Positions 33,161 through 47,831 of a DNA stretch of 64,000 nucleotides are shown here, piece by piece. Below the pieces are notes generated by a model. The model ran no database searches. It had not been told where the DNA came from and saw only the letters and a list, made by a program, of their open reading frames with translations. Every line of letters begins with the position of its first letter. The first letter of the stretch is position 1. Origin of the DNA: Prochlorococcus sp. AG-402-K04 (GTDB lineage Bacteria; Cyanobacteriota; Cyanobacteriia; PCC-6307; Cyanobiaceae); contig QCID01000006.1 of the NCBI GenBank assembly GCA_003216895.1, positions 1 through 64,000 of the forward strand, read 5' to 3'. The position numbers and the translations under genes were made by a program.

Positions 33161-33295
33161 ATTATTTTATTCTCTTTTTCATTGTAAGCATGATGAAAGA
33201 ATTTGTTTAAAAGAATTCAAAAAATATTTACGAGAAAATAAACTTTATAAAAACCGAGGAAAAGTTGCTTTTCCAATAAGAACCTTATATCTTTC

Positions 33296-33325
33296 AATGG
33301 CACTAAAATGAATATGCCATTGTCC
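33296..33325. repeat. Arm-like remnant (ATGGCACTAAAA type)
   Basis: The word TGGCACTAAAA recurs in the arm repeats of the site at 40043-40091, and a second, diverged ATGCCAT follows 8 bases later. An AlpA-type gene fossil begins about 40 bases to the right, the same order as at 43.4 and 45.9 kb. Confidence 0.4.
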
Positions 33326-33363
33326 TGATTGGAGAACTAACTCTAAATAGATAAAGCAGGGAA

Positions 33364-33417
33364 TCACTTCACTCCTTTATCTATTTGTTCTTGCATCAAT
33401 TTCTTTAGATCTAACTC
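33364..33417 (-). pseudogene. AlpA-type excisionase fossil (C-terminal codons)
   Basis: The minus strand reads LELDLKKLMQEQIDKGVK then stop, matching the tails at 43511 and 45983 (E-S-D-V-Q-K-W-M-x-E-Q-I). Here the key Trp is Leu. Only the last 18 codons are recognisable. A 9-bp inverted repeat TAGATAAAG / CTTTATCTA (33348-33383) overlaps the end and may have been the terminator. Confidence 0.45.
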
Positions 33418-33699
33418 TAACAAGAAAATAGATTTTAACTGATAAAGATTTGTTTAGAGAATGAAGCATGATTTATCTTGTTATAGATAATTGATATATA
33501 TAACTAATCTTTCAATGACTTTTGAACACTAAGGGAACTTTCTCTGATATAGATTTTATGAATGCTCCAAAGAGAAACAATGCCCCCTATGGCAAATCTT
33601 TATCATTTTATAAAAATACTAATTATAATAATAGAGGTTAAGTTATCCAAAAATTATTCTTAATGGTTGAGATCAGATTATTTAAAATCCAAATATGTT

Positions 33700-34134
33700 A
33701 TGAAAATGATTGAACCGTACTTAAATTTAATTAAAAAGATTCAAAGATTTAGTTTTTTCCTTCCTGCTTTAATTACAATTTATCTATGGGCAAAAGGAAA
33801 GAATGAATTCCTAATTGGTTTCCCAGCTCCATGTCCTTTCAAATCTATAATAGGTATTCCTGGCCCAACTTGTTTCCTTACAAGGGCAACGAGTGCAGCA
33901 CTTCAATTGCAACTAATAGACTCTATAAATTTACATTTATTTGGTCCATTAGTTGCAATTGGTCTTATGGTTTGGTCAGTAATAGCTATAAAAGATAAAA
34001 ATATATTCCCATTTGAAATAAGTTTAAAATTTACAGCATTTACAACAACAATTCTTTTGGCATATTGGTTTTTCAGGATAACTATGACATATGCATTTAA
34101 TTTTAATATGTTTCAAGAATCATTAATGTCCTAA
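33700..34134 (+). CDS. DUF2752 membrane protein
   Basis: About 144 residues from the ATG at 33700 (a TTG at 33667 gives 155). Three transmembrane helices. The DUF2752 hallmark CPFKSIIGIPGPTCFLTRA is present, though the usual C-P-x-C-G-x-T-R pattern is altered (G-P-T-C-F-L-T-R). Function of the family unknown. It converges with the next gene, overlapping by four bases. Confidence 0.8.
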   Translation: MKMIEPYLNLIKKIQRFSFFLPALITIYLWAKGKNEFLIGFPAPCPFKSIIGIPGPTCFLTRATSAALQLQLIDSINLHLFGPLVAIGLMVWSVIAIKDKNIFPFEISLKFTAFTTTILLAYWFFRITMTYAFNFNMFQESLMS

Positions 34135-34826
34135 TTATTAGAGTATTTAATTACTCCTACATGAGAAGCATAATTAAAAACATAGAAGTATGCCATTGGG
34201 ACAAAAATTAATCCACCAATACCGCAGGTTAATATTGTACATATTCCAGTAACAAGTCCAACTAAAATACTAACCCCAAAGAAACCACCAGCTTTGCCTG
34301 AGTTGAAGACTGAACTCCATGAATTCTTAAAAGATTCTAAAACAGTAAGATTAGTAGTAAAGATTTTTTGAACATAAACAGGTGTAATTAGAGCAAGGAT
34401 AATTCCAGGGACTATACAAAATAAATATCCAAGAAGCACAGCGATAGACCAAAATGCCCCAGCAAGAATATATCTCCAAAAACGACTCTTAAGTATATTA
34501 AGAAGTTGCTTAAATGAAACAACTTCTCCTGTTGAGTAATAAATGGGAACAATGGCTATAAGAAGGACTCCAAATAAATTGTTAAGGATGGAAAAAGGAG
34601 AAGAAAGAATCCATCCCAAAATGGTAGCAAAATAAATAGACCCCTCACTGTAATCTCCGATTGCAGGAATAACTAAGTTGCAAACAAGACTAATAACATA
34701 GGCAATCAAAAACAAAACGACCGATGTTAAATATAAAAGTGCAAATGTGCCGAGGTGAGATTTAAAAGACCTCCATGAATCTCCAACTGTTGGAGCCTTG
34801 TAGGCAAGAGCTAGTTCGTTCCCCAT
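34131..34826 (-). CDS. Polytopic membrane protein, DUF975/YciC-like
   Basis: 231 residues, about five to six membrane segments. The stretch LFCIVPGIILALITPVYV is the typical helix-turn of glycerophosphodiester-phosphodiesterase-like membrane domains and DUF975/YciC proteins. The C-terminal half CTILTCGIGGLIFVPMAYF matches the neighbour at 35819 (ASVITCGLGSFVAIPLGAF), so the two are paralogues. Function unknown. Confidence 0.75.
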   Translation of the reverse strand: MGNELALAYKAPTVGDSWRSFKSHLGTFALLYLTSVVLFLIAYVISLVCNLVIPAIGDYSEGSIYFATILGWILSSPFSILNNLFGVLLIAIVPIYYSTGEVVSFKQLLNILKSRFWRYILAGAFWSIAVLLGYLFCIVPGIILALITPVYVQKIFTTNLTVLESFKNSWSSVFNSGKAGGFFGVSILVGLVTGICTILTCGIGGLIFVPMAYFYVFNYASHVGVIKYSNN

Positions 34827-35339
34827 TAAAAAAATAAATGATCTTAATTCTAATCAATATAGTTTGTATATACTTACAATTTTTTGAAGATCTTCTCTTA
34901 TTTTAATAATTAAATTTTGGATAACGGAAGCAATGGATTTAAGCAACTCCATAAATAATTGATAAACCTAGCAATATCAAGGAAAATTTTGCTATTGGAG
35001 ATCTAGAACCAAATCTTGAAAATCAAAATTGCTTGTAATAGATGATCATTCTTAAACTACCAAGATTTAAAACCTATGAATTTAAAATTATCATTTCAAA
35101 AGTTTTAGCTATTCACAAGGTCCAAAACTAGTGAATGTAACTTGGACTTAGTTCTTTGATATCAGTGATAAAAAAGTACTAGGAGGTTTATTGCAAATTA
35201 TTTGTTCAAGGTCAACCACACTTTTAGCATTCATTGTAAATTTTATACAATGAAGCATATTAAATACAACAAGCTGAGGTCTTAGATTTTTCAATAGTAA
35301 TTAAGTTAATTAAAAATAAATTCTTAATAAAAAACTTTC
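34827..35339. other. Gene-free AT-rich stretch in the island
   Basis: About 510 bases without a convincing gene, hairpin or repeat. Promoters for the gene at 34826 are expected on its left edge. Confidence 0.4.
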
Positions 35340-35735
35340 TTAATCTCTTAATTGGCAAAATATCCTATATGCAGAAGAAGCATTTTTCCCCTTGGTCGCT
35401 TCCATTATTAAAAACAAATCTATAAACCACCATAAGCCACAGCCCCCAAAAGAAAACAACTTTAACAAACCTAATACCGTATCTCCTATTACAAAACGAT
35501 CTATACCCATACCTCCTAAAAAAATAGAGATAAGTAAAATAGTTGTCGGATCTTTAGCCTCTTGTTCACATGCCATCAAAAAAGATGCTCTTTCATCCTT
35601 AGGTAGTTTTTTAGCGAGAATCAATGAACCTGCACGCTTTAATTCATATTCTCCAATAATGTCTACTCCAGATTCAGTAATTGGAACCGGCTCAGGAATT
35701 TGATCTGAATTGTTCATTTGATCAGAATTAGTCAT
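35340..35735 (-). CDS. TM2 domain protein
   Basis: 131 residues. A polar N-terminal 65 residues is followed by two helices with the TM2 pattern (LLISIFLGGMGIDRFVIGD, then LKLFSFGGCGLWWFIDLFLI). TM2 proteins are small membrane proteins of unknown biochemical role. It lies between two paralogous DUF975-like genes on the same strand. Confidence 0.88.
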   Translation of the reverse strand: MTNSDQMNNSDQIPEPVPITESGVDIIGEYELKRAGSLILAKKLPKDERASFLMACEQEAKDPTTILLISIFLGGMGIDRFVIGDTVLGLLKLFSFGGCGLWWFIDLFLIMEATKGKNASSAYRIFCQLRD

Positions 35736-35818
35736 TTTAAATAGCTGATTAGTTTTTTTCTGTATAGATGTAGATAAATAAATAAATCAAGAAATTAGAA
35801 AATAATACGAAAATTATA

Positions 35819-36400
35819 TTAACTAGAGGGAAGAATATTATTCGGCTTATTACCAAGATTGTTTTGACTCATATATCCATAAATACTAAAAGCACCTAAA
35901 GGTATAGCAACAAATGATCCTAGGCCACAAGTAATTACTGAAGCCAATGAAACTAATGCCCCAATAATAATTTGAATCAAAACGAATACCCACATTCTTT
36001 TTGTTTTAAGACCACCGAAAAACTCTTTAATTCCTCCCTTGACACATTCAACACCTGATTTATCAGTATTTACTATCCTTGAAATAATTAATGGTGTAGC
36101 AAAGCTAAGTAACATCCCAGGAACCAGAAGAAGCAAAAATCCAATAGACATAACAACAGCTTGCAATACTCCAGCGATCAAAATTCTTGAGAAGTTTTCA
36201 CCTAAGAAACCAAGAGCATCTTTAAGAGTTAGAGCCTTTCCTTCTCTGTAATAAATACATGGTATGTAGTAAACCATAACTACAAGTAATGGACTTGCTA
36301 TAGCACCCCAAGGGAATGCCAAAAGACAAAAAGCAAAGGGTACCACCCATTGTTTTTTGTAATCTGACCAAGATCTATTTAGATTTATAGCTGACAACAT
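35819..36400 (-). CDS. Polytopic membrane protein, paralogue of 34131-34826
   Basis: 193 residues, four to five membrane segments. It shares LLLLVPGMLLSFATPLII and VITCGLGSFVAIPLGAFSIYGY with the neighbour two genes downstream. Same strand and close to the TM2 gene, so the three may act together in the membrane. Function unknown. Confidence 0.72.
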   Translation of the reverse strand: MLSAINLNRSWSDYKKQWVVPFAFCLLAFPWGAIASPLLVVMVYYIPCIYYREGKALTLKDALGFLGENFSRILIAGVLQAVVMSIGFLLLLVPGMLLSFATPLIISRIVNTDKSGVECVKGGIKEFFGGLKTKRMWVFVLIQIIIGALVSLASVITCGLGSFVAIPLGAFSIYGYMSQNNLGNKPNNILPSS

Positions 36401-36737
36401 TTTTGGTAGAATTTATATTAATTATCCTTATCATAAGTTAAAAAAAGTAATTCGCCTAATAATTCATCAGATACTGATAGATTTGTAAAAATAGTACAAG
36501 AAAATCCATTGATTTATAAAGAAGAATAAAAAGTTTCTTATTTTTTGGTTAAGAACATAAATATTTACACCATTTGGAATGTATTACGTTTTTCAGAACT
36601 ATCACTATATAGTTTCAATAACGATCAAGGTACCCTACTATTATTTCTTAAAAGATAAATAAGGATCTCCTTAATTAAATACCGTAAAAAAAGAATAAGA
36701 AATTTTAATTTCCCAAATACTTCTAAATCAAAAGGAA
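36401..36737. other. Gene-free AT-rich stretch in the island
   Basis: About 340 bases without a recognisable gene or RNA. Confidence 0.4.
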
Positions 36738-36989
36738 TCAATATGGGCATTCTATCTTGATTTCTTTTCGGTATTTCTTCACATAACCCTCTTTATATGA
36801 ATCCCCTTCGATATATTCCTCCCAATAAACTTTCTTCCAACAAGTCACATGTTTATTCTTAGCATTAGCAGGAAAATCATATTTATCAGGTGAAACTGCT
36901 TCTAAAAACTCTTGCCAAGTTAAAGAATAGACTGGCGAATGGAATAAAAAAAAAGCTATTGCTAAAAGAAAATTTCTATTTAGTCTCAT
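36738..36989 (-). CDS. Small secreted protein
   Basis: 83 residues. A signal peptide (NFLLAIAFFLFHSPVYSLT) is predicted to be cleaved near residue 23. The mature part is polar, with two Cys (VTCWKKVYW; IKIECPY) that could form a disulfide. Unknown family, typical of the island's cargo. Confidence 0.6.
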   Translation of the reverse strand: MRLNRNFLLAIAFFLFHSPVYSLTWQEFLEAVSPDKYDFPANAKNKHVTCWKKVYWEEYIEGDSYKEGYVKKYRKEIKIECPY

Positions 36990-37023
36990 CTTATTAAATA
37001 ATTATTTGAAACTCTTTAATTTT

Positions 37024-37305
37024 TTATATCCAGGTTATCAACCAATTCAAATTTGCAAAAAACAATGCTGACGAAATTGCTAATAAAAGAAATTTCTTTA
37101 ATTTCTTTTCTACTTTATTTGTAAAACAATTAATTATTGCTAAAATAGTGGCTACCAGCAAAAGCAAAACTTGTATTACCGAAATTGATATAGACACAAT
37201 ATCTGGAAAAAAATAACCTGTAGAATTGCCAATTATGTAAACAATTCCATCAATAAAATTAATTAAAGTGGAAAAGAGAATCAGAAAAAGTGAAGCAATA
37301 TCCAT
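37024..37305 (-). CDS. Small membrane protein, paralogue of 44352-44639
   Basis: 93 residues from the ATG at 37305. Three hydrophobic segments. The C-terminal half (TILAIINCFTNKVEKKLKKF then LLLAISSALFFANLNWLI) matches NIFSLINIFSNKTSKVFNKL / LLLAVPFAFLLVNIKWLI of the gene at 44352. Function unknown. Confidence 0.65.
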   Translation of the reverse strand: MDIASLFLILFSTLINFIDGIVYIIGNSTGYFFPDIVSISISVIQVLLLLVATILAIINCFTNKVEKKLKKFLLLAISSALFFANLNWLITWI

Positions 37306-37314
37306 TTTAATCAA

Positions 37315-37692
37315 GAAATCAATCCTAATTCTAACAAATTAAGCAGCATAAATAAAAATTTGAAACAGAGAGCTAGTTGTTCTTTTAGAACGACATGTCA
37401 TGACATAGCACTAAATTTAAATCGTTTATGCATGGTTCCAAAGGACCCGTCCCCGAATCAAATGTTTTTTCTTAGGAAGGTATAAAAGTTTCCTTGAAAT
37501 ATTTTCTGATACTTAAAGTGCTTAAATTCAATATTTTACATAATATTTTTTACCATCTATCTCTTGGATTGATAACCTAGTAAGAAATATCAATCCAAAA
37601 ATTAGTCCTATGTAAGAAATTAAATTAATAAATTTTATTAGATTAAAAATTTAATACAGAAATCAAGTAGGCTTAAAGAAATAAATAAAACC
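37315..37692. other. Gene-free stretch with palindromes
   Basis: It contains GTTCTTTTAGAAC (around 37379-37391) and, immediately after, the perfect 12-base palindrome ATGTCATGACAT (37395-37406), followed by TAGCAC. No gene is evident. Adjacent palindromes in an island gap may be a recombinase or regulator site; this is weak. Confidence 0.4.
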
Positions 37693-37983
37693 ATGGAAAA
37701 TATTCTTTTCTTTTTAATATTTAGTGGTATATGGGCAGTTGCAGATGCTATTGTTGCTCCGCCTATTTCCAAATTACTTGGAATAAAACTAGAAGTTTCC
37801 GAATGTATAGTTGGAAGCATGCTTGGAGCGATAGGAGGTTTCTTTTTTGGTCCTATCATTGCTTTTAGTATTGAGCAAAAAGCTTCAAGCTGGATAGCAA
37901 CAATATGTCTAATAATTTTTAGTTTTATTTTTCATATAATCTCCACCATTTTATTTAGTATAATCTCTGCTATTAGTTATTAG
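37693..37983 (+). CDS. Small membrane protein
   Basis: 96 residues, three hydrophobic segments with a glycine-rich loop (GSMLGAIGGFFFGPIIAF). No recognised family. Confidence 0.6.
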   Translation: MENILFFLIFSGIWAVADAIVAPPISKLLGIKLEVSECIVGSMLGAIGGFFFGPIIAFSIEQKASSWIATICLIIFSFIFHIISTILFSIISAISY

Positions 37984-38120
37984 TAAAATCCCAATAGATA
38001 GTTAGATTATGAATCAATGGTTTTAAAAATATAATAATAAAATAAACAATCAATAATGATACTTTATTTGAATTAATTTGATCAATTATTAATTTAGAAA
38101 AAGTAATGTATTTATTTCAA

Positions 38121-38456
38121 TCATGGTGCAAAAGAAATTGCTTCTAGAAGTTGAACAAAGAATCCAGAGATACATATGGTCCCTAAGAAAAGCAAAAGAA
38201 ATCGATTTAATTTCTTAGATTCTCCCAGGGAGAAACTAACGGGAGCGATAATATATGAAATCAAACTCAAAATAGCTCCTAGTCCATAAAAAGCAGATTG
38301 AAACAAAGCAGAAACACACCAAACGATATAATCGAAACCATCAATTGGTCCAAAGAGAAAATTAGAGAAACTAACTAAACCTCTTATATTTATAGAAATA
38401 AATATACAAGTTAAAATTAAAAAAACAATATATCTTTTACATCCGATAATTACCAT
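38121..38456 (-). CDS. Membrane protein of unknown function
   Basis: 111 residues, three transmembrane segments. The start lies three bases from the stop of the SHOCT-domain gene, so the two are probably one operon. No family recognised. Confidence 0.6.
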   Translation of the reverse strand: MVIIGCKRYIVFLILTCIFISINIRGLVSFSNFLFGPIDGFDYIVWCVSALFQSAFYGLGAILSLISYIIAPVSFSLGESKKLNRFLLLFLGTICISGFFVQLLEAISFAP

Positions 38457-38459
38457 TTA

Positions 38460-39230
38460 TTAGAAATTTTGAGTTGTTCTTGAAAGGATCTTAGCTTTCA
38501 TTTCTTGGAATTCAACATCACTTAAGACTCCTTGATCAAGAAGTTCTTTTAATTTCAACAATTCATCAGCAATATCAATTGTTGACTTTGAGATGTCGTT
38601 ATTTTCAATTAATGTTTGACTAGAACCTGATGACAAAGGGGATTGCCCAATCATAATACCTCCAGCTTGAGCTCGTTTCTCTTCCATCTCTCTAATCCGT
38701 CTCTTCTCTTCCCATGCCTGCTCTTCTTGCTGAGCATGCTTATATGATTTAGAAGCAATTTCAAGATCAGGGAAAACTTCTATCCGCATCCAATTTCCTT
38801 TAAAAGTTAATGTAGAACCACAAATAGAAGGCAAGACATTTTCAGAAACCTGCGCATCTTTTAGATCTTTCCATTGAAAATCCCTCATTTGAAACCCACC
38901 TAATAATCCTCTATTTAATCGAATTATTCTTGAATTAGTAACGGCGAATACCTGCCTTCTACTGAATAATGCAAAAGGTCTTTTATCAATTCCTTTTTCA
39001 ATTATTGCCTCATCTTTCATAAGGGTGTCATATAATTTTGTATATGCTTTTTTCAACCTATCTTCTGAATTAATAAAAACCAAATAATAATACAGGCAGA
39101 TAGAAATAAGAAAAATAAAAAATCCTAAAGTTGCAACACCGATATATCCTACTTGCCATAATAAAATAATAATAATAAGGATACCCAACCAAGAGCTTAT
39201 CAACTTAAAAATATTAAAAATCCCAGTCAT
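38460..39230 (-). CDS. Membrane protein with PH-like and SHOCT domains
   Basis: 256 residues. Two N-terminal helices (about residues 10-55), a bacterial PH-like domain (RRQVFAVTNSRIIRLNRG, then LTFKGNWMRIEVF), a charged helical linker, and a C-terminal SHOCT motif (ELLKLKELLDQGVLSDVEF then EMKAKIL). SHOCT is a short helical module often seen at the ends of membrane-associated proteins. Upstream partner of the gene at 38121. Confidence 0.82.
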   Translation of the reverse strand: MTGIFNIFKLISSWLGILIIIILLWQVGYIGVATLGFFIFLISICLYYYLVFINSEDRLKKAYTKLYDTLMKDEAIIEKGIDKRPFALFSRRQVFAVTNSRIIRLNRGLLGGFQMRDFQWKDLKDAQVSENVLPSICGSTLTFKGNWMRIEVFPDLEIASKSYKHAQQEEQAWEEKRRIREMEEKRAQAGGIMIGQSPLSSGSSQTLIENNDISKSTIDIADELLKLKELLDQGVLSDVEFQEMKAKILSRTTQNF

Positions 39231-39464
39231 CTTTCCTCCGATTTATTTTTCGTTCTATTTAGGATAGCTACTCCTTCTATCTAAATTTTATTACTTTGAA
39301 AATTGTCATTTTTAAAGTAAAGAACGCCTATTTGAATCTTTTCAAAACTTCATCGGCCAATCAGCATCATATTTTACTTTCAAAAGTTTAGATTTTTCTT
39401 TCGAGATTAATCATTTTTGCTCTAGAGACATCCTGAGATGGGTATAGACAAAAGTAAAAAACGT

Positions 39465-39565
39465 AAAGAGAGTTGTCGTTTTTTCACTCAGGAGGGACGG
39501 TGAGGGAACAAAGAGGAACGATAATTAGAAATCGGTTCAAAATCCAACAACATCTCCAACAACAT
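39465..39565 (+). repeat. Att-like module repeat a
   Basis: Weak tRNA-end core (AAAGAGAGTTG, 7 of 11), 66 bases, then ATCCAACAACAT (39542) and CTCCAACAACAT (39554). Its interior (ACGGTGAGGGAACAAAGAGG and following bases) matches repeat e, which confirms it as a member of the family despite the poor core. Confidence 0.6.
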
Positions 39566-39704
39566 CTCAAGATCTAACGATTAAAAAACTACTCGCAAAA
39601 ATGATAGAAAATAATACTTCTAAAGAAAAGTGAATTCAAAAACTTATGGCATGTCGTTAAGTTAAATTAGAATCAAGTTAAAAGAGCCTCTTATTTGGAT
39701 TTAC

Positions 39705-40025
39705 ATGAGAATCCAAACTTTTACAAAAATTGCATGTTTTGCCACTTTCATGAGTTGCAATTTTCAATGGAGTAATGCAAATCCTATTATTGACAAAGTA
39801 GAGGGGCTTCGTAATACACCAGGCTATTATTTAAATCAGCCACAAAATGGTGGAACGACAACACTTAAGGAAAAGTGCGAAGCTATTGATTATTTTCAAA
39901 GAATTAATGATTGGGGAGGAGTTATGAAAATTTCCTTTCAAATAGGATTTGAACACCCTACTGACTACCTCAAAGTTGATGAAGCTTGTGCAAAAGTTGG
40001 TGTAAATACCTCAGTGGATTTTTAG
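39705..40025 (+). CDS. Small secreted protein
   Basis: 106 residues with a signal peptide ending near NFQWSNANP. The mature part contains two Cys (LKEKCEAIDYF; DEACAKVG) and is soluble. No recognised family. Sole gene of the module between repeats a and b. Confidence 0.6.
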   Translation: MRIQTFTKIACFATFMSCNFQWSNANPIIDKVEGLRNTPGYYLNQPQNGGTTTLKEKCEAIDYFQRINDWGGVMKISFQIGFEHPTDYLKVDEACAKVGVNTSVDF

Positions 40026-40042
40026 TTTTTGATAAACCTTTG

Positions 40043-40091
40043 CAGAGAGGGTGTAAGTCCAACTGACACCTCATGGCACTATGTGGCACTA
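40043..40091 (+). repeat. Att-like module repeat b (divergent arms)
   Basis: Core CAGAGAGGGTG (10 of 11 to the tRNA-Ser end) is followed by TGTAAGTCC and then a different arm pair, GGCACTA twice (40075 and 40085). This shows that the core is conserved while arms can be replaced. Confidence 0.6.
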
Positions 40092-40346
40092 AAAGGTCAT
40101 TTCATTTTTTTCATGTAAACCTTTAAAGAGATAATTCATAATTATTCATTTCCGACTCATCCTCAATAAAGGTAAATCCAAAAAGACTTAAAAAGTTTAT
40201 TTTTAGATTCATTTTGTTTTTTGACTTCTGCTCTAATAAATTACATAGGTGGAGCATAAAATAATATATTGTTAAAAAATACTTATTCCTCGCAACCCTT
40301 TAACCTCAATAACTTATGCTCCATAAGCATTAATTACTAGTATAAA

Positions 40347-40667
40347 ATGATAAATAGAATATTATTAAGTTGTATTCTTTTGCCTATTCTACTTACAGGT
40401 TGTTCATCAAATGATGAAGTAAAAGGAATCAAACCTGAATCAGGTGATGTAATAAAAGACCTTGGACCGAATGCTTATATGGGGAATGGTTCACAAGTCA
40501 ATTGCACTAAACAAACTATAAAAAATACCGAAGTCATTAATCAATTTCTAAATATTGATGATTACATTAAAGAGGTCATAAATCAATCTCCAGATGCTAA
40601 GGGTTGGGAATCAACGCTGGAATACGCGATTGAACTGATTTTTGATATGTATTGTTTAGATGAATAA
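40347..40667 (+). CDS. Small lipoprotein
   Basis: 106 residues. The lipobox LLTGC at residues 15-19 follows a short hydrophobic helix, so it should be a lipid-anchored envelope protein. The mature part is acidic with two further Cys. No recognised family. Sole gene between repeats b and c. Confidence 0.65.
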   Translation: MINRILLSCILLPILLTGCSSNDEVKGIKPESGDVIKDLGPNAYMGNGSQVNCTKQTIKNTEVINQFLNIDDYIKEVINQSPDAKGWESTLEYAIELIFDMYCLDE

Positions 40668-40744
40668 TGCCTTATCAAATAAGAATTTAAAAATATAGAG
40701 GAGAAAATTCCAGATAATATCTACTGTTTAGAGACATTTTGGTA

Positions 40745-40849
40745 CTGAGAAGGTGTCAGTCGCTTTAGATCCTTTTAGGACTTGTGGGGACAGGAGAGGA
40801 AAGGTTTCTGAAATTGGATGGCAATATCACCCAGCACATCCACCAGCAC
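40745..40849 (+). repeat. Att-like module repeat c
   Basis: Core CTGAGAAGGTG (9 of 11), 70 bases with GTGGGGACAGGAGAGGA, then ATCACCCAGCAC (40826) and ATCCACCAGCAC (40838). Total 105 bases. It is close to identical to repeat i, and the homology extends about 25 bases left of the core. Confidence 0.8.
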
Positions 40850-40869
40850 ATTTTTTGAAAAAGAATCTA

Positions 40870-41180
40870 GATATTTTTTATCATTCAGAGAATATTATCT
40901 TTTCTCTCTTTCTTGGGCGTGTAAACCAAAAGAATTCCAACACTAAACCGACGAATGGAATCAACCATAAAAATATATTTTACTAAGGTTTTTTCAATAT
41001 CTCTTAAACGCCTAATTCATATAGCAATACGTAGGGAAATCCCCCAAAAGAAATAGATTAGTGAAAGGGCACCAACAAGAAGAGATATAAATAAAATCAA
41101 ATCCCCAAAAATTCACTTCGACTCGTTTTACCAGAGAAATCAAAAGATATTCTCCAAGCAGAAAAATAAGACTTGATCAT
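40870..41180 (-). pseudogene. DUF805 membrane protein, multiply broken
   Basis: The minus strand from the ATG at 41180 reads MIKSYFSAWRISFDFSGKTS then RSEFLG, the DUF805 N-terminus, and hits TGA. In other frames the family continues: LILFISLLVGALSLIYFFWG, IRRLRDIEKT (the R-R-L-x-D-I motif), and LWLIPFVGLVLEFFWF. At least two frameshifts or nonsense changes are needed, so it is a decayed gene. Confidence 0.75.
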
Positions 41181-41360
41181 TAAATATCCTTTCTCATTCT
41201 GCCCCACACAAAAAAAACATACAACGCTCCTATGCCATTACTTATACCGAATTTTAAAAAAATATTTTAATTTCTTAAGTTTGAAGATCCCATATGAAAT
41301 TCTTAAAGGAAGAGTTAATATATTATTTTAAAATTGTTAATTATTATTTCCTCACAGAAA

Positions 41361-41687
41361 ATGAACTCTAGAACTTATCTTATTTACTTAAATCTTATCA
41401 TTTCATCAATTTTTTTATTTCCTATTTCAACCCAAGCAAAACCTAAGAATATTACAGAGGGATTATACTTCGGTATGGGTTATGGCGTAAGTTCTACACT
41501 TTGTGATTTAACGATTAATGGTGTTTTAACTGAATCTATGGGTAATGAATTTATATATAATTATTTCCAACCAGGACTCACAAATGGAGATTACAATCTT
41601 CTTGGACAAACGAAAGATGGTTTTAATGCTGCAGTAGATGTTATAAACGATCAAGATGGTGAAAATTGCAAATTAAAAGTTTATTAA
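41361..41687 (+). CDS. Small secreted protein, family shared with 42053
   Basis: 108 residues from the ATG at 41361 (a TTG at 41334 is possible). The signal peptide ends near PISTQAKP. The mature segment LYFGMGYGVSSTLCDL resembles YYYGFFIGSLSETCIL in the next module's gene, with a conserved Cys. Function unknown. Confidence 0.62.
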   Translation: MNSRTYLIYLNLIISSIFLFPISTQAKPKNITEGLYFGMGYGVSSTLCDLTINGVLTESMGNEFIYNYFQPGLTNGDYNLLGQTKDGFNAAVDVINDQDGENCKLKVY

Positions 41688-41861
41688 AAACTAACTTTTA
41701 ATCAATCGTATAGAAATACAGAATTTTTAATAATATTTGTACAATCATTTTAAGGGGTTTCTTAGAATAAAAAATAGGAACTCGAGCGAGAGATGCAGAA
41801 TTCAGGCGAAATTCTGCACGAATATAGACGCCTTGAGTCGCCTACAGTCAAAAATCAGGAG

Positions 41862-41993
41862 CAAAGAGGGAGACAGAGTAAGTCGCTTTAGGTGGTTTTA
41901 GGAATTGTGGGGACATGAGAGGACAGGTTTCTGGTATCAGGTAGCAATATCCACCAGCACATTTTTGATAAAAAATCGCTCATCCACCCACAT
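41862..41993 (+). repeat. Att-like module repeat d (decayed)
   Basis: Core CAAAGAGGGAG (8 of 11), then GTCGCTTTAGG and GTGGGGACATGAGAGGACAG shared with c, g and i, then one ATCCACCAGCAC (41949) and, 21 bases further on, ATCCACCCACAT (41982). Confidence 0.6.
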
Positions 41994-42052
41994 AATTCAA
42001 AGTAAAATAGTAACTAAAATTTATGTAAAATAAATAAAATATTGATTTAATT

Positions 42053-42352
42053 ATGAAAAAGAAGATTGGAATAACTTTTTTTGCACTTTGTATTTTCTCA
42101 ATGCCAAGTCAAGTATTTGCTGAATTTAACTTAGACAATAAAAGTTATTATTATGGTTTTTTTATTGGAAGTTTATCCGAAACTTGTATCCTTTACCAAT
42201 TTGGCAACCTAAGTGGAGAGGATTTAAGAGAAACTTATCAATCAATTTTTTCTAGTCTTAGAAAAAGAGATAAGAAAGTGGAAAAATTGGTTTTTAAATT
42301 TGCCAACGATAAGAAATTCTATTGTAAAGATTTTGTCCCTTTCAATTATTAG
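42053..42352 (+). CDS. Small secreted protein, family shared with 41361
   Basis: 99 residues with a signal peptide (GITFFALCIFSMPSQVFAE). The mature part has YYYGFFIGSLSETCILYQFG, similar to the gene at 41361, and a second Cys in KFYCKDF. Sole gene between repeats d and e. Confidence 0.62.
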   Translation: MKKKIGITFFALCIFSMPSQVFAEFNLDNKSYYYGFFIGSLSETCILYQFGNLSGEDLRETYQSIFSSLRKRDKKVEKLVFKFANDKKFYCKDFVPFNY

Positions 42353-42427
42353 ATTTACCTTTTTCGAAAGTCAAACTCATTCCTTAAGCACTTACTAAAT
42401 CTATTATAAAATCCGCCGTAAGAAAAA

Positions 42428-42532
42428 CTGAGAGAGTGGTAGTCGATTTGCGTTTAGGAGGGACGGTGAGGGAACAAAGAGGAACAATAATTCCAAATCA
42501 GGTAAAAAATCCAACAACATATCCAACAACAT
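42428..42532 (+). repeat. Att-like module repeat e
   Basis: Core CTGAGAGAGTG (9 of 11), exactly 70 bases, then ATCCAACAACAT twice in tandem (42509 and 42521). Total 105 bases. Interior close to repeat a; the core flank GGTAGTCGATTT matches repeat f. Confidence 0.75.
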
Positions 42533-42602
42533 TTTCCTTCTCCCGTTAATAAGGTCTTTTTCTATTAGAGTAGAAAGATCTCATATCAATTGATCTCGGC
42601 AT

Positions 42603-42647
42603 ATCCCACAACATTTTGAGTTCTCGCACTCAAAAATCCCCCCGCAC
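42603..42647 (+). repeat. Isolated arm-type repeats
   Basis: ATCCCACAACAT (42603) and ATCCCCCCGCAC (42636) fit the ATCCnnnnCA[CT] pattern, separated by TTTGAGTTCTCGCACTCAA. The same separator and a similar first word recur at 44115, so these are two copies of one arm region. Confidence 0.55.
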
Positions 42648-42702
42648 AAATCGCTCTCCAATAAGAAATTTCGGGTAAAATTAAAGACAAAAGGAATCCT
42701 AT

Positions 42703-43227
42703 ATGAATAAGAATAAAATTCTATTCATCGTCGCTTTAATAACATCCCCTTTGATATCAAGTTGTTCCCTATTGATGGATTTGCCAACCAAGTTAATAGA
42801 TAACTATAACTCAACTAAAGCATGTAGACTTAAACCTATCAGCAATGAGAATCCTACTAAATCTCAACTAGAGACTCTAATAAATACTTATTTAAGTTGC
42901 AAGTCAGCATTCCTTGCTGGAAAAGAAAATACTGACTTTTCAAATATTTTATCCTCAAGTCTTACAAATAGTCTATCAAAAGAGCGCCAAAAAGATATTT
43001 CAAGAGGCAATGTGCAACTGGTAAATGTACTTATAAGTTCCCTTAAAGTTCAGTCTCGAACAAATAAGAGAATTGTTCTAAATGTTATTTTGAACTATCA
43101 AAGTAAAAGGATTAGTTCTTCTGGTGAGATTTTAACAGAAACGGTTATGCCTTCTTTAAAAGTGAAGTATGTCCTTGAACGCAATAAAGATATTTGGCAG
43201 ATAGTTGATTACTTAAGTGCAAATTGA
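42703..43227 (+). CDS. Lipoprotein
   Basis: 174 residues. Lipobox LISSC near residue 21. The C-terminal half (SSLKVQSRTNKRIVLNVILN then YQSKRISSSGE) alternates strands and ends KDIWQIVDYLSAN, the outline of a cystatin-like domain such as the ARC6 IMS domain; that similarity is weak. Located in the module after repeat e. Confidence 0.6.
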   Translation: MNKNKILFIVALITSPLISSCSLLMDLPTKLIDNYNSTKACRLKPISNENPTKSQLETLINTYLSCKSAFLAGKENTDFSNILSSSLTNSLSKERQKDISRGNVQLVNVLISSLKVQSRTNKRIVLNVILNYQSKRISSSGEILTETVMPSLKVKYVLERNKDIWQIVDYLSAN

Positions 43228-43236
43228 GGGATGAAT

Positions 43237-43329
43237 TTATAAATATTGAAACCCCTTCTTACCCATCATTTGAGTTCTGTCTTGTTTTGTTATCAACTTC
43301 TCGTCATCTGCAAGTTTGAATCTTGCCAT
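43237..43329 (-). CDS. Possible 30-residue peptide or gene remnant
   Basis: ATG at 43329 opens a frame of 30 codons (MARFKLADDEKLITKQDRTQ and a basic end). It may be a real micro-protein or the surviving start of a deleted gene. Nothing else supports it. Confidence 0.25.
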   Translation of the reverse strand: MARFKLADDEKLITKQDRTQMMGKKGFQYL

Positions 43330-43408
43330 GTTTTTGCTGTATAAATGCAATTAAATTCTATTTGGAAAATAATAAAATAATTACTTATTGTTTTTTTCAC
43401 ACTTATAA

Positions 43409-43454
43409 ATTCCCTAGCACATTTTATTTCTTTCCCTAGCACAATCCCTACCAC
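43409..43454 (+). repeat. Arm-type repeats, CCCTAGCAC variety
   Basis: ATTCCCTAGCAC (43409), TTTCCCTAGCAC (43431) and ATCCCTACCAC (43444) form a further variant of the arm set. An AlpA-type fossil begins about 57 bases to the right. Confidence 0.5.
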
Positions 43455-43497
43455 GTTTTTTAGACGCACTTGACTGCATAGATAATTGATTAGTCAT

Positions 43498-43521
43498 AAA
43501 AAAGTAGGGTTTAACTCCTAC
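43498..43521 (-). terminator. Intrinsic terminator at the AlpA fossil end
   Basis: On the minus strand GTAGG and CCTAC flank an 8-base loop and are followed by a T-run. The hairpin overlaps the stop codon of the fossil gene. Confidence 0.55.
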
Positions 43522-43570
43522 CCTTATCTATTTGTTCTTGCATCCATTTCTGTACATCTGATTTCTACAA
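43511..43570 (-). pseudogene. AlpA-type excisionase fossil
   Basis: The minus strand reads K-S-D-V-Q-K-W-M-Q-E-Q-I-D-K-G-R-S then stop, the same tail as the fossil at 45983. A one-base slip brings the preceding L-F-V-E into register; in the present frame it is preceded by a stop. Only the C-terminus survives. Confidence 0.55.
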
Positions 43571-43642
43571 ATAATTGAATAGAATGAGTTTAGTCTTATT
43601 TAATTGCACATACTTCATGCCAAACTTATAGCTATTAAATTT

Positions 43643-44035
43643 TCACTCAGATCGTAAATAAACACCATGACGTGAGGAAGACCAATAAGTAAGAATAGCA
43701 GTATTGATAAATAACCCGACAATCCCAAAGGCTACTTCTTCGAAATTAGAGGTAAACAAGTCTTCAATTATGCATATAAATTCTACAAGAAGCGAAAAAC
43801 AAAGAGTGCATCTAACTACCCATAAACCAAGAATCTTTTTATATAAGAGTTGAATACATCCAAATATAGCGATTAAAAATACCGGTATAGAAACAAACAA
43901 TAAACCAGTTTCTATAGGACCTAATTCTTCAGGGGCAAGAAAGAAAATTGGTGGTATAACAGCTAAGCAAAAAGCTTCAGTAGCAATTCCTAGAATTACC
44001 ATAAGTTTAAAACCAGTTGGTTTAGCAATAGTCAT
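43643..44035 (-). CDS. Membrane protein of unknown function
   Basis: 130 residues from the ATG at 44035 (a TTG at 44047 is also possible). Four transmembrane segments. No recognised family. It follows the fossil AlpA end and is read toward it. Confidence 0.6.
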   Translation of the reverse strand: MTIAKPTGFKLMVILGIATEAFCLAVIPPIFFLAPEELGPIETGLLFVSIPVFLIAIFGCIQLLYKKILGLWVVRCTLCFSLLVEFICIIEDLFTSNFEEVAFGIVGLFINTAILTYWSSSRHGVYLRSE

Positions 44036-44084
44036 TAAAACATCCAAGAGAAGTAAGATTTTAATTTAGTTCTAACGCTCGAAT

Positions 44085-44160
44085 ATGACTACCAGAGAGT
44101 GGCATTTTCTCAATATCGCACAACATTTTGAGTTCTCGTACTCAACCCCCCACACATTTT
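44085..44160 (+). repeat. Decayed att/arm remnant
   Basis: CAGAGAGTGG resembles the core. ATCGCACAACAT (44115) and the following TTTGAGTTCTCGTACTCAA match 42603-42635 closely. It indicates a duplicated arm region flanking the genes at 42703 and 43643. Confidence 0.45.
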
Positions 44161-44351
44161 TTTTCCTTTAAAAATAATTAGAAAAAGTTTCAGGGATCAT
44201 TGGAGATTTTTTTCTTTGTCATAACAACTAAACAAAAAATTATAGTTAATGATAAAAAATTTTTTAAAATGAAGTAATTCAAATGTCCGAAAAAGTATCC
44301 TTCCCGATTATATTTTCTTTGTTTTTTAATTAAAAACTACTTAAATTTCTA

Positions 44352-44639
44352 CTATAAAACTGCTCTTATATATCCTATTAACCATTTTATATTAACTAAA
44401 AGGAATGCGAAGGGAACTGCTAAGAGGAGTAATTTATTAAAAACTTTTGATGTTTTGTTAGAAAAAATATTTATTAAGGAGAAAATATTTGCCAGAAATA
44501 AAATTAATATTTGAGTGATAACAATTGAAATCCCAATCCAATAAGAAATTGAATTTAAGTTAATAAATAGATTAATAATATTTGAGATTAAATGTATTAA
44601 TGCATAAAAGAAAAGAAATAAAAGAGCAGGAGTTTCCAT
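44352..44639 (-). CDS. Small membrane protein, paralogue of 37024-37305
   Basis: 95 residues from the ATG at 44639, three hydrophobic segments. The C-terminal half parallels the gene at 37024 (shared N-x-x-x-N-I-F-S-N-K and L-L-L-A-V pattern). Unknown function. Two copies in one island suggest gene exchange between modules. Confidence 0.65.
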   Translation of the reverse strand: METPALLFLFFYALIHLISNIINLFINLNSISYWIGISIVITQILILFLANIFSLINIFSNKTSKVFNKLLLLAVPFAFLLVNIKWLIGYIRAVL

Positions 44640-44728
44640 ATTGACGATCAATTTAAATAATTTTAACCCATAGAACCAAAATCTCTCTTGTTTTATCTTC
44701 CATAAGGGTATCTATTAGAATGTCATAA

Positions 44729-44821
44729 CTGAGAGGGTGGTAGTCGATTTAAGTGATTTTAGGAATCGTGAGGACTCCATAGGAGATAGTTGTCGAAATC
44801 GGTCGAGAAATCCACCAACAC
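44729..44821 (+). repeat. Att-like module repeat f (empty module)
   Basis: Core CTGAGAGGGTG (10 of 11), exactly 70 bases, then one ATCCACCAACAC (44810). The 134-base direct repeat starts there and leads straight to core g. No gene lies between f and g, so this looks like a module that lost its cargo by recombination between its two arm sets. Confidence 0.7.
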
Positions 44822-44943
44822 AATCTTCAGACTTAGAAAGATTTGCAGGATCTATAGCGATCAAATATTCCTGAGAACAACTACTAGAACTAGACTTCTG
44901 TAAGTCTATGGATCCGCAGGAATTACAAAATACGGAGAGGGTG
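44810..44943. repeat. 134-base direct repeat, left copy (att-like)
   Basis: It differs from 47622-47755 at seven positions with no gaps; the last 72 bases are identical. It comprises one arm word, the sequence normally downstream of tRNA-Ser including the small hairpin TAGACTTCTGTAAGTCTA, and the 11-base tRNA end CGGAGAGGGTG. The two copies bracket 2.8 kb. Confidence 0.9.
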
Positions 44944-45036
44944 TCAGTCGCCTTAGGTGCTTTTAGGACTTGTGGGGACAGGAGAGGACAGGTTTCTGAA
45001 ATCGATTACAAAATCCACCCACACATCCACCCACAC
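44933..45036 (+). repeat. Att-like module repeat g
   Basis: Core CGGAGAGGGTG identical to the tRNA-Ser end, 69 bases with TGTGGGGACAGGAGAGGACA, then ATCCACCCACAC twice in tandem (45013 and 45025). Confidence 0.85.
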
Positions 45037-45119
45037 AATTCTCTAATAGATTTATGAACCCCTTTAAAAATCTTCAAAAAGTTGTGTTTTATAGTCGATC
45101 TATTCTAGATTTTATAATT

Positions 45120-45590
45120 CTAATTTTCAACAGATTGAATATGCACAACATCCTTCATGCAACTGAAAGTCCTAATTAAAAGAATTAAGTCTAAAGAAAT
45201 ACTTCCTATTAAATTGCTCATATCAGAATAAATACCACCATCGAAAAATAAACTATGAACAATTTCATATGGAATTACAAAAAAGAAAAGATATCTTATC
45301 GCAATAATAACTTCAAGACTTACTATCCTTTCTAAAAAATTCTTTCCATTTTTGCCTTCATTTGCGATATAACATAAAAATATAGTCAAGAAATAAAGTA
45401 TGTTTTCAAATCCCCAAGCAATCCATTTGTAATTTTCCTCTTGATAGTAATCAAACAATTTAATTTCTTGAGGCGAAGAAATTAATGCAAAAATAATCCC
45501 AATCAAAAAATAATAAATCAATAAGTCTCTTTGATTTATTTTGCTATTAGCAAGATCATTTTTAAGTTTCTGGATATTCCACAAATTCAT
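45120..45590 (-). CDS. Membrane protein of unknown function
   Basis: 156 residues, about four transmembrane helices (LIYYFLIGIIFALIS; YFLTIFLCYIA). No recognised family. Only gene of the module between repeats g and h. Confidence 0.6.
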   Translation of the reverse strand: MNLWNIQKLKNDLANSKINQRDLLIYYFLIGIIFALISSPQEIKLFDYYQEENYKWIAWGFENILYFLTIFLCYIANEGKNGKNFLERIVSLEVIIAIRYLFFFVIPYEIVHSLFFDGGIYSDMSNLIGSISLDLILLIRTFSCMKDVVHIQSVEN

Positions 45591-45804
45591 AATTAAAAAA
45601 AATTTATAATTACACTATAGGTAGCAGTTCTTCATAAAATTGGATTTAAATATTTTTTTTAATACACTAATTTTCTTTAAGTGATTTTCATTTAAATTCA
45701 TATAAACTTCGTGGGAAAAATATTTCTAGATCGATATAAAATCTAAAAAACTATATTTTTGAGACGACTTGGGTATGCATGGGATTACCTGGGAATACAA
45801 AATG

Positions 45805-45909
45805 CGGAGAGGGTGAGATTGTAACTGGTGTTGAAAGATTAGTTATGGGAACCAATGGGACGATACTTTTGGAATCACCCAATAAATCCCACATCACATC
45901 CCACATCAC
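45805..45909 (+). repeat. Att-like module repeat h
   Basis: Core CGGAGAGGGTG identical to the tRNA, with the left flank ATACAAAATG close to the tRNA's own flank and the right flank AGATTG resembling the T-arm. Then 70 bases and ATCCCACATCAC twice (45886 and 45898). Total 105 bases. Confidence 0.8.
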
Positions 45910-45982
45910 CAAAAACCTTGAAAATTCGTCTTTTTTAGAGAATTCAAAGCGTTTTTCAACGCTGTCTCAGAGGCAAATGGTC

Positions 45983-46087
45983 CTAAGCGTTTTTTTCTAT
46001 TTGTTCAGACATCCATTTTTGAACATCACTTTCTAAGCAAACAACAATTGCTGGGGCAATTTCAATTTGTTTTGGATAGAAACCTTT
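45983..46087 (-). pseudogene. AlpA-type excisionase fossil (best preserved)
   Basis: The minus strand reads KGFYPKQIEIAPAIVVCLES then D-V-Q-K-W-M-S-E-Q-I-E-K-N-A and stop. This matches the second half of AlpA/phage excisionase proteins (G-x-F-P-K-P-I-x-L ... W-x-E-S-D-V-x-x-W). The N-terminal half is missing: a stop lies just upstream of the lysine. AlpA-type proteins control integrase direction in P4-like elements. Confidence 0.65.
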
Positions 46088-46107
46088 TTAAGTATGGGAG
46101 GTAAGTT

Positions 46108-46278
46108 ATGAAAATAATTCTTGAATGGGAAGATCAGTTCTCTCATTGGAAGAGATACACCCTGATGAACCATCAACCATCTGCTGTTAGATCAGCAAAG
46201 AGAAGAGCAACTTCTACTGGTAAAAGGCATAGGTTGGTTGATGAATCAGGAAGATTATTAGATCTAATTGATCCATAG
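46108..46278 (+). CDS. Small basic protein, phage/island type
   Basis: 56 residues: MKIILEWEDQFSHWKRYTLM, then a basic helix (AVRSAKRRATSTGKRHRLVD) and ESGRLLDLIDP. The ribosome site GGGAGGT at 46096-46102 is strong. Proteins of this pattern occur in picocyanobacteria, to my recollection, without known function. It is followed after two bases by the gene at 46281, so the two form an operon. Confidence 0.75.
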   Translation: MKIILEWEDQFSHWKRYTLMNHQPSAVRSAKRRATSTGKRHRLVDESGRLLDLIDP

Positions 46279-46280
46279 TT

Positions 46281-46655
46281 ATGAGAAATATATTTTTAAT
46301 CGCAACCACCCTTCTCTTTTGTGGTGATAATGCTTTTGCTTTTTATAGATCAATTCCTTGTGCTCTTTCATATAAGAATTACAGGCAATATTTAATTAAA
46401 ACAGGGGCAACACCTATCAAGTGTGAGGGAGAAACTTATTACTGGGATGAATTATGTAAAAGCGGATGGGATTCACTTGATCTAGATCAACCATATGCTG
46501 CTTGGGATATAAAAGGGGTTTCAGGACTACAACCTGTTAGATATATTTTTCCAGTAAGGCATCCATTTAGTTCTCATAGAACGGATAAGTTTTCAAAGGG
46601 GAAGTTTAAAAATCTTTTATGTGTGAAGGCAGAATATCTTTATGATGAGCGCTGA
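46281..46655 (+). CDS. Small secreted protein
   Basis: 124 residues. The signal peptide ends near CGDNAFAF. The mature part has several Cys (RSIPCALSY, IKCEGETYYWDELCKSGW, LLCVKAEY), suggesting disulfides in an exported protein. No recognised family. Cargo of module 1. Confidence 0.65.
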   Translation: MRNIFLIATTLLFCGDNAFAFYRSIPCALSYKNYRQYLIKTGATPIKCEGETYYWDELCKSGWDSLDLDQPYAAWDIKGVSGLQPVRYIFPVRHPFSSHRTDKFSKGKFKNLLCVKAEYLYDER

Positions 46656-46668
46656 TTAATAGAACTCA

Positions 46669-46713
46669 ATCCCACATCACAGACAATACATCCCACATCA
46701 CATCCCACATCAC
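46669..46713 (+). repeat. Right arms of module 1
   Basis: ATCCCACATCAC at 46669, 46690 and 46702, identical to the left arms at 45886 and 45898. They end 87 bases before the next core. Confidence 0.85.
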
Positions 46714-46800
46714 CAAAAATCAGAAATTGTTTTTTTAGAGAATTAAAAAATAGAAAGAGATAATTTAAATCTATATCTACTTTTTAGAGATAATTTGGTA

Positions 46801-46905
46801 CGGAGAGGGTGTCAGTCGTTTTAGGTACTTTTGGGACTTGTGGGGACAGGAGAGGACAGGTTTCTGAAATTGGATGGCAATATCCACCAGCACATCCACC
46901 AGCAC
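46801..46905 (+). repeat. Att-like module repeat i
   Basis: Core CGGAGAGGGTG identical to the tRNA, exactly 70 bases with TGTGGGGACAGGAGAGGACA, then ATCCACCAGCAC twice (46882 and 46894). Total 105 bases. Confidence 0.85.
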
Positions 46906-46965
46906 ATTTTTAGTCACTACATGATAAATAATTACTCTATTAGAAAAATCTATACTTAGACTTAT

Positions 46966-47490
46966 TTACTGAAAAAGACAGTATTTTTCCAAATTACTCT
47001 CAACAAGGTTTTTAACAGTAACGTGAAGATATTTTGTACCTTTTAATGCAATATTAAGGTCAGGACAGAAATCATTTTTTAATTTTCCCCTTTGAATTTT
47101 GACATCGGCAAGTATTGCCATTCTTGTAAAATATCTTTCTTTAGATTTATCGGTTAATCTTGGTTTAGGAAGATATCTCAACGAATTCTCAAGGTCAGAT
47201 TGAATTTGACTACCAATTTCTGGAACCAGAAGATTACCTTTATTCATTCTTAGAAATGCTACTCCTCGTGCATAATAACCTTGATGATGTTTAGGGTTTT
47301 CTTCAATAAGAAAATTACATGCTCTATAAACTTTTGACCATTCTTTCTCAAAATAACTTGCATAATCGAAACTATCCTTACATTCTGACCAATAGTAATT
47401 TTCTAATTTAGTGTTTTTTTGGTTGCTACAAGATTGACCGAAAAATACGCTAAAGAAAATAATTATCCCTAATAAAAATCTATTTCTCAT
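46966..47490 (-). CDS. Lipoprotein with TPR-like middle
   Basis: 174 residues. Lipobox FGQSC near residue 21. The middle (YRACNFLIEENPKHHQGYYA then RGVAFLRMNKGN) has the spacing of a tetratricopeptide unit. Cys pairs (ECKDSF, RACNFL, DFCPD, KYCLF) may be disulfide-linked. Sole gene of module 2. Confidence 0.65.
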   Translation of the reverse strand: MRNRFLLGIIIFFSVFFGQSCSNQKNTKLENYYWSECKDSFDYASYFEKEWSKVYRACNFLIEENPKHHQGYYARGVAFLRMNKGNLLVPEIGSQIQSDLENSLRYLPKPRLTDKSKERYFTRMAILADVKIQRGKLKNDFCPDLNIALKGTKYLHVTVKNLVESNLEKYCLFQ

Positions 47491-47569
47491 TTAATCTATT
47501 TAATAAGCAATTACTCTTTCAATATAATCTTAATCATTAATCTCCAGTATTAGAAAAGCATTAGAAGAA

Positions 47570-47633
47570 ATCCACCAGCACCGAAATATCCACCAGCACG
47601 TCAACTAATATCACCCAGCACATCCACCAGCAC
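47570..47633 (+). repeat. Right arms of module 2
   Basis: ATCCACCAGCAC at 47570, 47588 and 47622 and ATCACCCAGCAC at 47610. The last two are in tandem and identical to the arm pair of repeat c (40826-40849). Confidence 0.85.
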
Positions 47634-47755
47634 AATCTTCAGACATAGAAAGATTTGCAAGATCTCTAGCGATCAATAATTCCTGAAAACAACTACTAGA
47701 ACTAGACTTCTGTAAGTCTATGGATCCGCAGGAATTACAAAATACGGAGAGGGTG
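47622..47755. repeat. 134-base direct repeat, right copy
   Basis: Partner of 44810-44943. Here the core is the real 3' end of tRNA-Ser. Confidence 0.9.
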
Positions 47756-47831
47756 GGATTCGAACCCACGGATAGTTTTAGCTATCAAACGATTTCGAGT
47801 CGTTCGCTTTCGACCACTCAGCCACCTCTCC
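47745..47831 (-). tRNA. tRNA-Ser (CGA)
   Basis: 87 bases on the minus strand. The acceptor stem pairs GGAGAGG with CCTCTCC; the discriminator is G. The anticodon loop CTCGAAA is closed by AACGA/TCGTT, giving anticodon CGA (serine, UCG). A long variable arm (GATAGCTAAAACTATC) and the T-arm GTTCGAATC are present. CCA is not encoded. Its 3' end is the sequence repeated throughout the island. Confidence 0.95.

Follow-up and report, generated by a model that had tools for sequence, protein, structure and literature searches.

The tycheposons (Hackl et al. 2023, Cell) are, according to the description given in a citing paper, elements of 4 to 200 kb that carry a tyrosine recombinase (PMC10872708). 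The same paper presents fGI-2 of Methylopumilus as an additive island at a tRNA-Lys gene, with repeats of the tRNA end and units from 330 bp upwards (PMC10872708). The cis-mobilizable elements (CIMEs) of Streptococcus have no integration or transfer genes, keep both attachment (att) sites, attL and attR, and form tandems by accretion (PMC5704250), and in Dehalococcoides the islands at ssrA stand in tandem, about half of them without an integration module (PMC3146451). Here we describe an array of nine small modules (a to i) at the tRNA-Ser(cga) gene of Prochlorococcus sp. AG-402-K04, a draft genome of 1.38 Mb that is 73.6% complete. The array lies in a stretch of 64,000 nucleotides (positions 1 to 64,000 of contig QCID01000006.1, assembly GCA_003216895.1), hereafter called the window. 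We consider it probable, at roughly 0.75, that these modules belong to a family of integrative elements specific to tRNA-Ser(cga), as miniature members without an integrase, and that they would have accreted at the 3' end of the tRNA gene and would be moved by visiting integrases.

The target gene was located by ARAGORN at 47745-47831 on the minus strand, and the core of the array is the 11-bp 3' end of this tRNA (47745-47755), with the sequence CGGAGAGGGTG. Further exact copies were found at 44933, 45805 and 46801 and one-mismatch copies at 40043 and 44729, which makes six copies including the tRNA in comparison to 0.12 expected from shuffled sequence, and the arm-pair pattern matched 10 times in the window in comparison to 0.17 expected. 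A profile of the P' region, which runs from the core to the arms, was trained only on sites from other genomes, outside the window, and it recovered nine sites on the plus strand (39475, 40042, 40747, 41878, 42425, 44729, 44929, 45801 and 46799) with E-values of 3.5e-5 to 1.6e-22, while the best remaining non-tRNA match had an E-value of 0.31; in nine genomes with an empty site, the profile matched the tRNA core alone. The nine-repeat array is confirmed as a real array of recombination sites. The first description of this DNA, which was made from its letters alone and is called here the sequence-only reading, was right about the nine head-to-tail repeats in one orientation and about the three exact and two one-mismatch cores, and its gaps of 70 or 69 bases from core to first arm and spans of 105 bases from core to end of arms agree with the sequence. 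Its arm form ATCCnnnnCA[CT] had to be corrected to ATCCnnnnnCA[CT], with five variable bases, and its claim that every repeat joins a core to a pair of 12-base arms holds for most modules, the exceptions being b, which has no arms, d and f, which have a single arm instead of a pair, and a, in which the core is decayed. The pairing of arms after the core stood as well, and a second cluster of arms ahead of the next core, which is present in h and i, had been missed.

Modules h (45805..46800) and i (46801..47744), both on the plus strand, are complete in that the same 12-mer arms occur at both ends, with an exact core, two P' arms 81 bp past it and three P arms about 85 to 175 bp ahead of the next core. 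In module h, ATCCCACATCAC is found at 45886 and 45898 and then again at 46669, 46690 and 46702, and in module i, ATCCACCAGCAC is found at 46882 and 46894 and then again at 47570, 47588 and 47622 (the last within 47610-47633). Because the P' arms follow one core and the P arms precede the next, the layout of h and i is, as read from the sequence, that of an integrated element with a split attP and no integrase. Complete integrase-less mini-modules were also found elsewhere, namely h in genome G008, and individual modules in G016, G024, G029 and AG-409-L14. In a set of 37 modules drawn from many genomes, the P arms resembled the P' arms of their own module more than those of other modules (permutation, p=5e-5), and in 14 of the 37 at least 10 of 11 bases agreed. 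A tandem arm pair, 11 to 12 bp apart, lies downstream of 52 of 73 non-tRNA picocyanobacterial cores in comparison to 3.3% of random positions, and the first arm starts mainly 77 to 85 or 68 to 71 bp from the core start in these 73 cores. The two spacings differ by about one helical turn, which would be expected if an integrase has to span the distance from core to arms on one side of the helix. Module f (44729..44932, plus strand; profile E=3.7e-16) has only 204 bp and no gene, and it consists of a P' end (81), one arm at 44810 that is common to both ends (12), and a P end (111) that is 93% identical to the P end of module i. This structure fits a recombination between identical arms that deleted the cargo, and module f looks as expected for a cargo-less remnant; gene-less modules of 193 to 241 bp were found in several genomes.

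A full-size counterpart of module h was found in Prochlorococcus AG-439-L12 (G040), where a 3.66-kb element at tRNA-Ser(cga) has a slightly degenerate core and arms ATCCCACAGCAC/ATCCCACATCAC at +81. Its cargo comprises a sulfotransferase along with the first gene of module h and a remnant of the second. These are followed by an integrase of 427 aa (P0001) that combines an Arm-DNA-bind_3 domain with a central and a catalytic one; matching P arms and the tRNA come next. Judged by its arm type and cargo, this element is an integrase-bearing relative of module h, in which the corresponding genes on the plus strand are ORF1 (46108..46278, 56 aa, with homology to genes in the G008 and G040 elements) and ORF2 (46281..46655, 124 aa, exported-protein-like, homologous to a gene in G008 and to a remnant in G040). 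Homologues of the G040 integrase, with about 40 to 46% identity for the closest, are encoded directly at tRNA-Ser(cga) in marine Synechococcus-like genomes (the genus assignment being inferred), with multiple P arms, mostly four, between the integrase gene and the tRNA. The five such elements that were fetched are 8.8 to 13.3 kb long and have an exact distal core and P' arms of the same type, and their arm types ATCCAACAACAC, ATCCACCAACAC, TTCCACCCACAC and ATCCCACAACAC resemble types of the Prochlorococcus modules. The tRNA-end core and the two-sided arms are those of a P4-type attP, and the arms of h match those of the G040 integrase element. AlpA-family proteins are excision factors for P4-type integrases, and AlpA-family genes or their remnants persist in some modules; in h a possible remnant of this excisionase-like type lies at 45986..46087 on the minus strand (Pfam PF05930, E=0.012, below the curated cut-off). 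That the repeats are att sites of non-autonomous elements, as was proposed at the outset, is supported both by the matching arms at two ends and by the integrase-bearing relatives of the same geometry. Searching elsewhere for the signature of core and arm pair, which had also been proposed, gave matches in 77 of 400 genomes and 27 of 59 genera in a family-wide pattern scan, a number of these being chance matches at the tRNA itself, and integrases at the same tRNA in AG-439-L12 and Synechococcus.

The tRNA-Ser locus was compared in 30 Prochlorococcus genomes, including that of the window, a few of the contigs being too short to judge. The site is empty in 9 of the 30, with the conserved flank running directly into the tRNA, and most of the other genomes have 0.24 to 14.5 kb inserted, with content that differs between genomes; in several filled sites the flank homology reaches the end of an 11-bp core and resumes at, or a few bases from, the core before the tRNA. 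In the window, the alignment with the flank of the empty-site genomes breaks off about 14.5 kb to the left of the tRNA and starts again at the tRNA itself, which delimits the whole inserted region to 33245..47744 (no strand assigned). The sequence-only reading had placed the start of the array at 39465; the inserted region starts at about 33245, and no recombination site (core or arms) was detectable with the P' profile in 33245-39464. The variation of modules among genomes that it had named as a check was found, from an empty site up to nine sites and with module boundaries that do vary, and clean junctions were found at the core, where homology stops on both sides for h and for the ion-channel module described below. 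The alternative that it had set against itself, a single tandem duplication with no site-specific junctions, fails, since among all pairs of islands a core is found within 20 bp of 72 of the 252 homology endpoints in comparison to 6.8 expected; a simple tandem duplication is ruled out also by the differences between modules in arm type, cargo and neighbours and by their site-specific boundaries.

The most direct evidence for movement comes from single modules that are shared between genomes. The window and G008, which represent two species, both have module h, with differing neighbours on both sides and homology that stops at the 11-bp cores; over the larger part of the module the identity is 91.2%, in comparison to 85.9% in the chromosome next to it. 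Another case is a 1.5-kb module that encodes an ion channel (Ion_trans). Between AG-409-L14 and G066, which belong to distinct genera, it is 96.1% identical from core to core, while the adjacent chromosomal DNA is just 68% and 65% identical, and in G041 the same module stands beside yet another neighbour. Modules with these ends have different cargo in G061, G095 and G097 and an additional gene in G046. Judged from these alignments, single modules have been transferred between distantly related lineages, and the differing neighbours of shared modules argue against joint movement in cis as the only route.

If the modules are such mini-elements, a mechanism may be outlined as follows. The full-size members of the family encode a P4-type tyrosine integrase, and the attP of the family would comprise the 11-bp core, two P' arms from about 81 bp after it, and three or four P arms about 85 to 200 bp before it. 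The mini-elements would keep both attP halves, with one to three cargo genes in place of the integrase. An integrase brought in by another element and able to read the 12-bp arms of a module would excise that module as a circle, which would then insert at the tRNA or at any core within the array. The core would restore the tRNA end at every insertion, and modules would therefore stack head to tail. Decay would proceed by arm loss, by fusion of modules, and by recombination of P with P' arms that removes the cargo and leaves a remnant of about 204 bp. The anatomy, the empty and filled sites, the core-to-core boundaries, the arm-matched integrase-bearing relatives and the single-module transfer are established by sequence comparison, whereas the trans-acting integrase, the circle as an intermediate and the way from cell to cell are presumed. 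A wider proposal, to which we give even odds, is that marine picocyanobacteria share a pool of tRNA-Ser(cga) mini-cassettes, most with one or two genes, functionally integron-like and derived from tRNA-targeting elements, in which the 12-bp arms would be the address that chooses a visiting integrase and no integrase would be resident.

Other explanations have to be weighed against these mini-elements. The modules could be relics only, that is, in-place remnants of full-size integrase elements that were never mobile as miniatures, and CIME-like accretion and decay is indeed the usual described route for such tandems (PMC5704250). Most window modules are one-sided or chimeric, excisionase-like gene remnants are present, and the G040 element combines the cargo of h with an integrase, all of which would be in keeping with relics. 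This reading meets its difficulty in module h, which two species have in common in mini form with different neighbours, and in the ion-channel module, which at 96% identity across genera, with differing neighbours and adjacent DNA at 65 to 68%, therefore moved when it was already miniaturised, and we regard the relic reading as unlikely. A somewhat smaller chance is given to the modules riding in larger blocks, either arrays or chromosomal segments, and being shuffled by homologous recombination between similar att ends, with no integrase needed now. The module edges, which lie at an 11-bp core beyond which the sequences are unrelated, and the flanking DNA that was not co-transferred in the ion-channel case, speak against it, even though P' regions of the same type are similar over about 94 bp and cargo genes are common to modules of different arm types.

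The search for a mobilising integrase bears on a further alternative, in which a tyrosine recombinase of about 390 aa, present in most Prochlorococcus genomes searched (e.g., L045 1438-2598), would act as a resident helper in the manner of an integron. This recombinase is found in most module-bearing genomes that are without an integrase of the P0001 kind, and in G066, which is 99% complete and has the intact ion-channel module, the only tyrosine recombinase match is of this weakly matching type. A resident helper is nevertheless very improbable in our judgement, with several unrelated arm types occurring per genome, integrase-bearing relatives encoding their own integrase beside matching arms, and the PF00589 match being weak. 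The genome of the window, at its 73.6% completeness, has one tyrosine recombinase match (PF00589), on another contig. Mobilisation of the mini-elements in trans would be supported because intact modules occur in genomes with no detected integrase of that family. Several observations weigh against the mini-element reading as a whole. No convincing match between P and P' was found in 23 of the 37 modules tested, and in the window both arm sets are present only in h and i (2 of 9 modules); b, c, d, e and g lack matching P arms. A search of 300 genomes for an integrase of the TTCCCTAGCAC arm type found none, many of the genomes being incomplete, so that a helper integrase could have been missed; in the genomes searched, where the surroundings were read, the TTCCCTAGCAC arm pair occurred only at modules (ion-channel context) and never beside an integrase. 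Excision, the circle and integrase activity were not observed, and transfer in larger blocks is still compatible with the data. A phage origin was tried separately and rejected. A 321-bp att query had no match in 50,697 phage records, viral contigs held no relative of the integrase, of the channel gene or of two site patterns, and the single viral-contig match of a third site pattern, in a GC-rich contig, was due to chance. The same negative searches apply to a reading as phage satellites (PICI/PICMI), whose hallmark is packaging by a helper phage.

The remaining modules of the array are mostly decayed or one-sided, and all lie on the plus strand. Module a (39465..40042, profile E=1.4e-12) has a decayed core, P' arms at 39542 and 39554, and one small gene at 39705-40025, while module b (40043..40744, E=3.5e-5) has a one-mismatch core and a lipoprotein-like gene at 40347-40667. 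Module c (40745..41867, E=1.4e-18) has a two-mismatch core, P' arms at 40826-40849 and one gene at 41364-41687, and module d (41868..42427, E=1.2e-9) has a decayed core, its single arm at 41949 and one gene at 42053-42352. Module e (42428..44728, E=7.8e-22) has a two-mismatch core, P' arms at 42509-42532 and three genes, at 42703-43227 on the plus strand and at 43643-44047 and 44352-44651 on the minus strand. Module g (44933..45804), also recovered by the profile, has an exact core, P' arms at 45013 and 45025, a P end of another type, which makes it chimeric, and a membrane-protein gene at 45120-45590 on the minus strand; the lipoprotein-like gene of module i lies at 46966-47490, also on the minus strand. 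Modules g, h and i have sizes of 872 to 996 bp, and the median over 70 modules is 1.28 kb. The first gene of module e matches an ARC6-like IMS domain (E=1.8e-11) and may encode a lipoprotein-like relative of this cyanobacterial division-protein domain, carried as mobile cargo. In the leftmost 6 kb of the insertion (33245-39464) there are genes of small membrane proteins (TM2 and SHOCT/PH domains), including a paralogue pair with module e, and this part would represent either old decayed modules or the product of another insertion route. Pfam identified just the ARC6-like, TM2 and SHOCT/PH domains among the proteins of the window island, and PADLOC gave no defence system for the seven window proteins tested. 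Far from the array, at 56137-56210, the window has short tandem repeats of 18-bp period that resemble AGGCTTTTCTTCTTCG.

Among the other genomes, larger modules include a helicase (AG-409-L14) and, in G211, a 7.6-kb core-bounded module (L186 6549-14126) with a complete type I restriction-modification set of R, M and S subunits. A denser array than that of the window was found on a 7.2-kb contig of G118 (L182), which has six exact cores and five modules of 0.24 to 4.2 kb. Genes of TPR-like proteins that lie in module arrays or next to them, at L127 1-300 and in the G005 island, contain near-identical tandem repeats of about 99 to 102 bp. Sulfotransferase-like cargo recurs across arm types (L074 17975-18712, L087 15909-16697, and the islands of G013, G022 and G024), which suggests that functions in cell-surface modification are a favoured cargo.

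Taken as mini-elements, the modules provide a concrete unit and mechanism for the gain and loss of single genes at one spot in streamlined ocean cyanobacteria, with a cargo that ranges over ion channels, sulfotransferases and small secreted or membrane proteins, and restriction systems in larger units. They make testable the movement in trans of integrase-less cassettes and the role of arm sequences as the determinant of specificity, the array of each genome would be a record of past integrations, and the site signature of a core, about 70 bp and paired 12-mers can be used for finding such cassettes elsewhere.

In comparison to known systems, the modules share with tycheposons their occurrence in Prochlorococcus, the integration at a tRNA, the tyrosine recombinase family, the cargo and the variability between strains. 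They differ in that they are mostly 0.2 to 1.5 kb long, far from the range of 4 to 200 kb, have one to three genes (usually one or two) and no recombinase of their own, and stand in arrays; this distinction follows the description of tycheposons in the citing paper, and such units may have been catalogued earlier. Like CIMEs, they have no integration or transfer genes and form tandem arrays at the end of a target gene, with att sites at both ends in h and i and one arm set in the other modules of the window (none in b). CIMEs are decayed integrative and conjugative or integrative and mobilizable elements moved in cis with a neighbour; the modules are far smaller, have one to three genes and recur singly across genera beside differing neighbours. 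The ssrA islands of Dehalococcoides are likewise in tandem, bounded by repeats of an RNA gene 3' end and without an integration module in about half of the cases, but they are large, use a serine (Ccr-like) recombinase and a tmRNA target, and no paired-arm architecture is reported for them there (PMC3146451). In fGI-2 of Methylopumilus, tRNA-end repeats also bound variable units, some of 330 bp, but the repeat has 20 bases, and arm sites, pairing with an integrase and single-unit transfer do not appear in the passages that describe the island. Integron cassettes are similar as small units of one to few genes that lie in one orientation, are exchanged singly and depend on a recombinase supplied separately, whereas the modules have a tRNA-end core, direct-repeat arms on both sides and a tRNA target, with no IntI-type integrase beside the array in this incomplete genome. 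The attC sites of integron cassettes fold as single-strand hairpins; the sites of the modules were analysed here as a core with direct-repeat arms. The suggestion of the sequence-only reading that the units resemble integron cassettes more than tycheposons thus holds for scale and modularity and not for the machinery, which is of the tRNA-targeting P4 type. The modules are a miniature variant of CIME-like or tycheposon-like tRNA elements, which work in the manner of cassettes and are not an integron.

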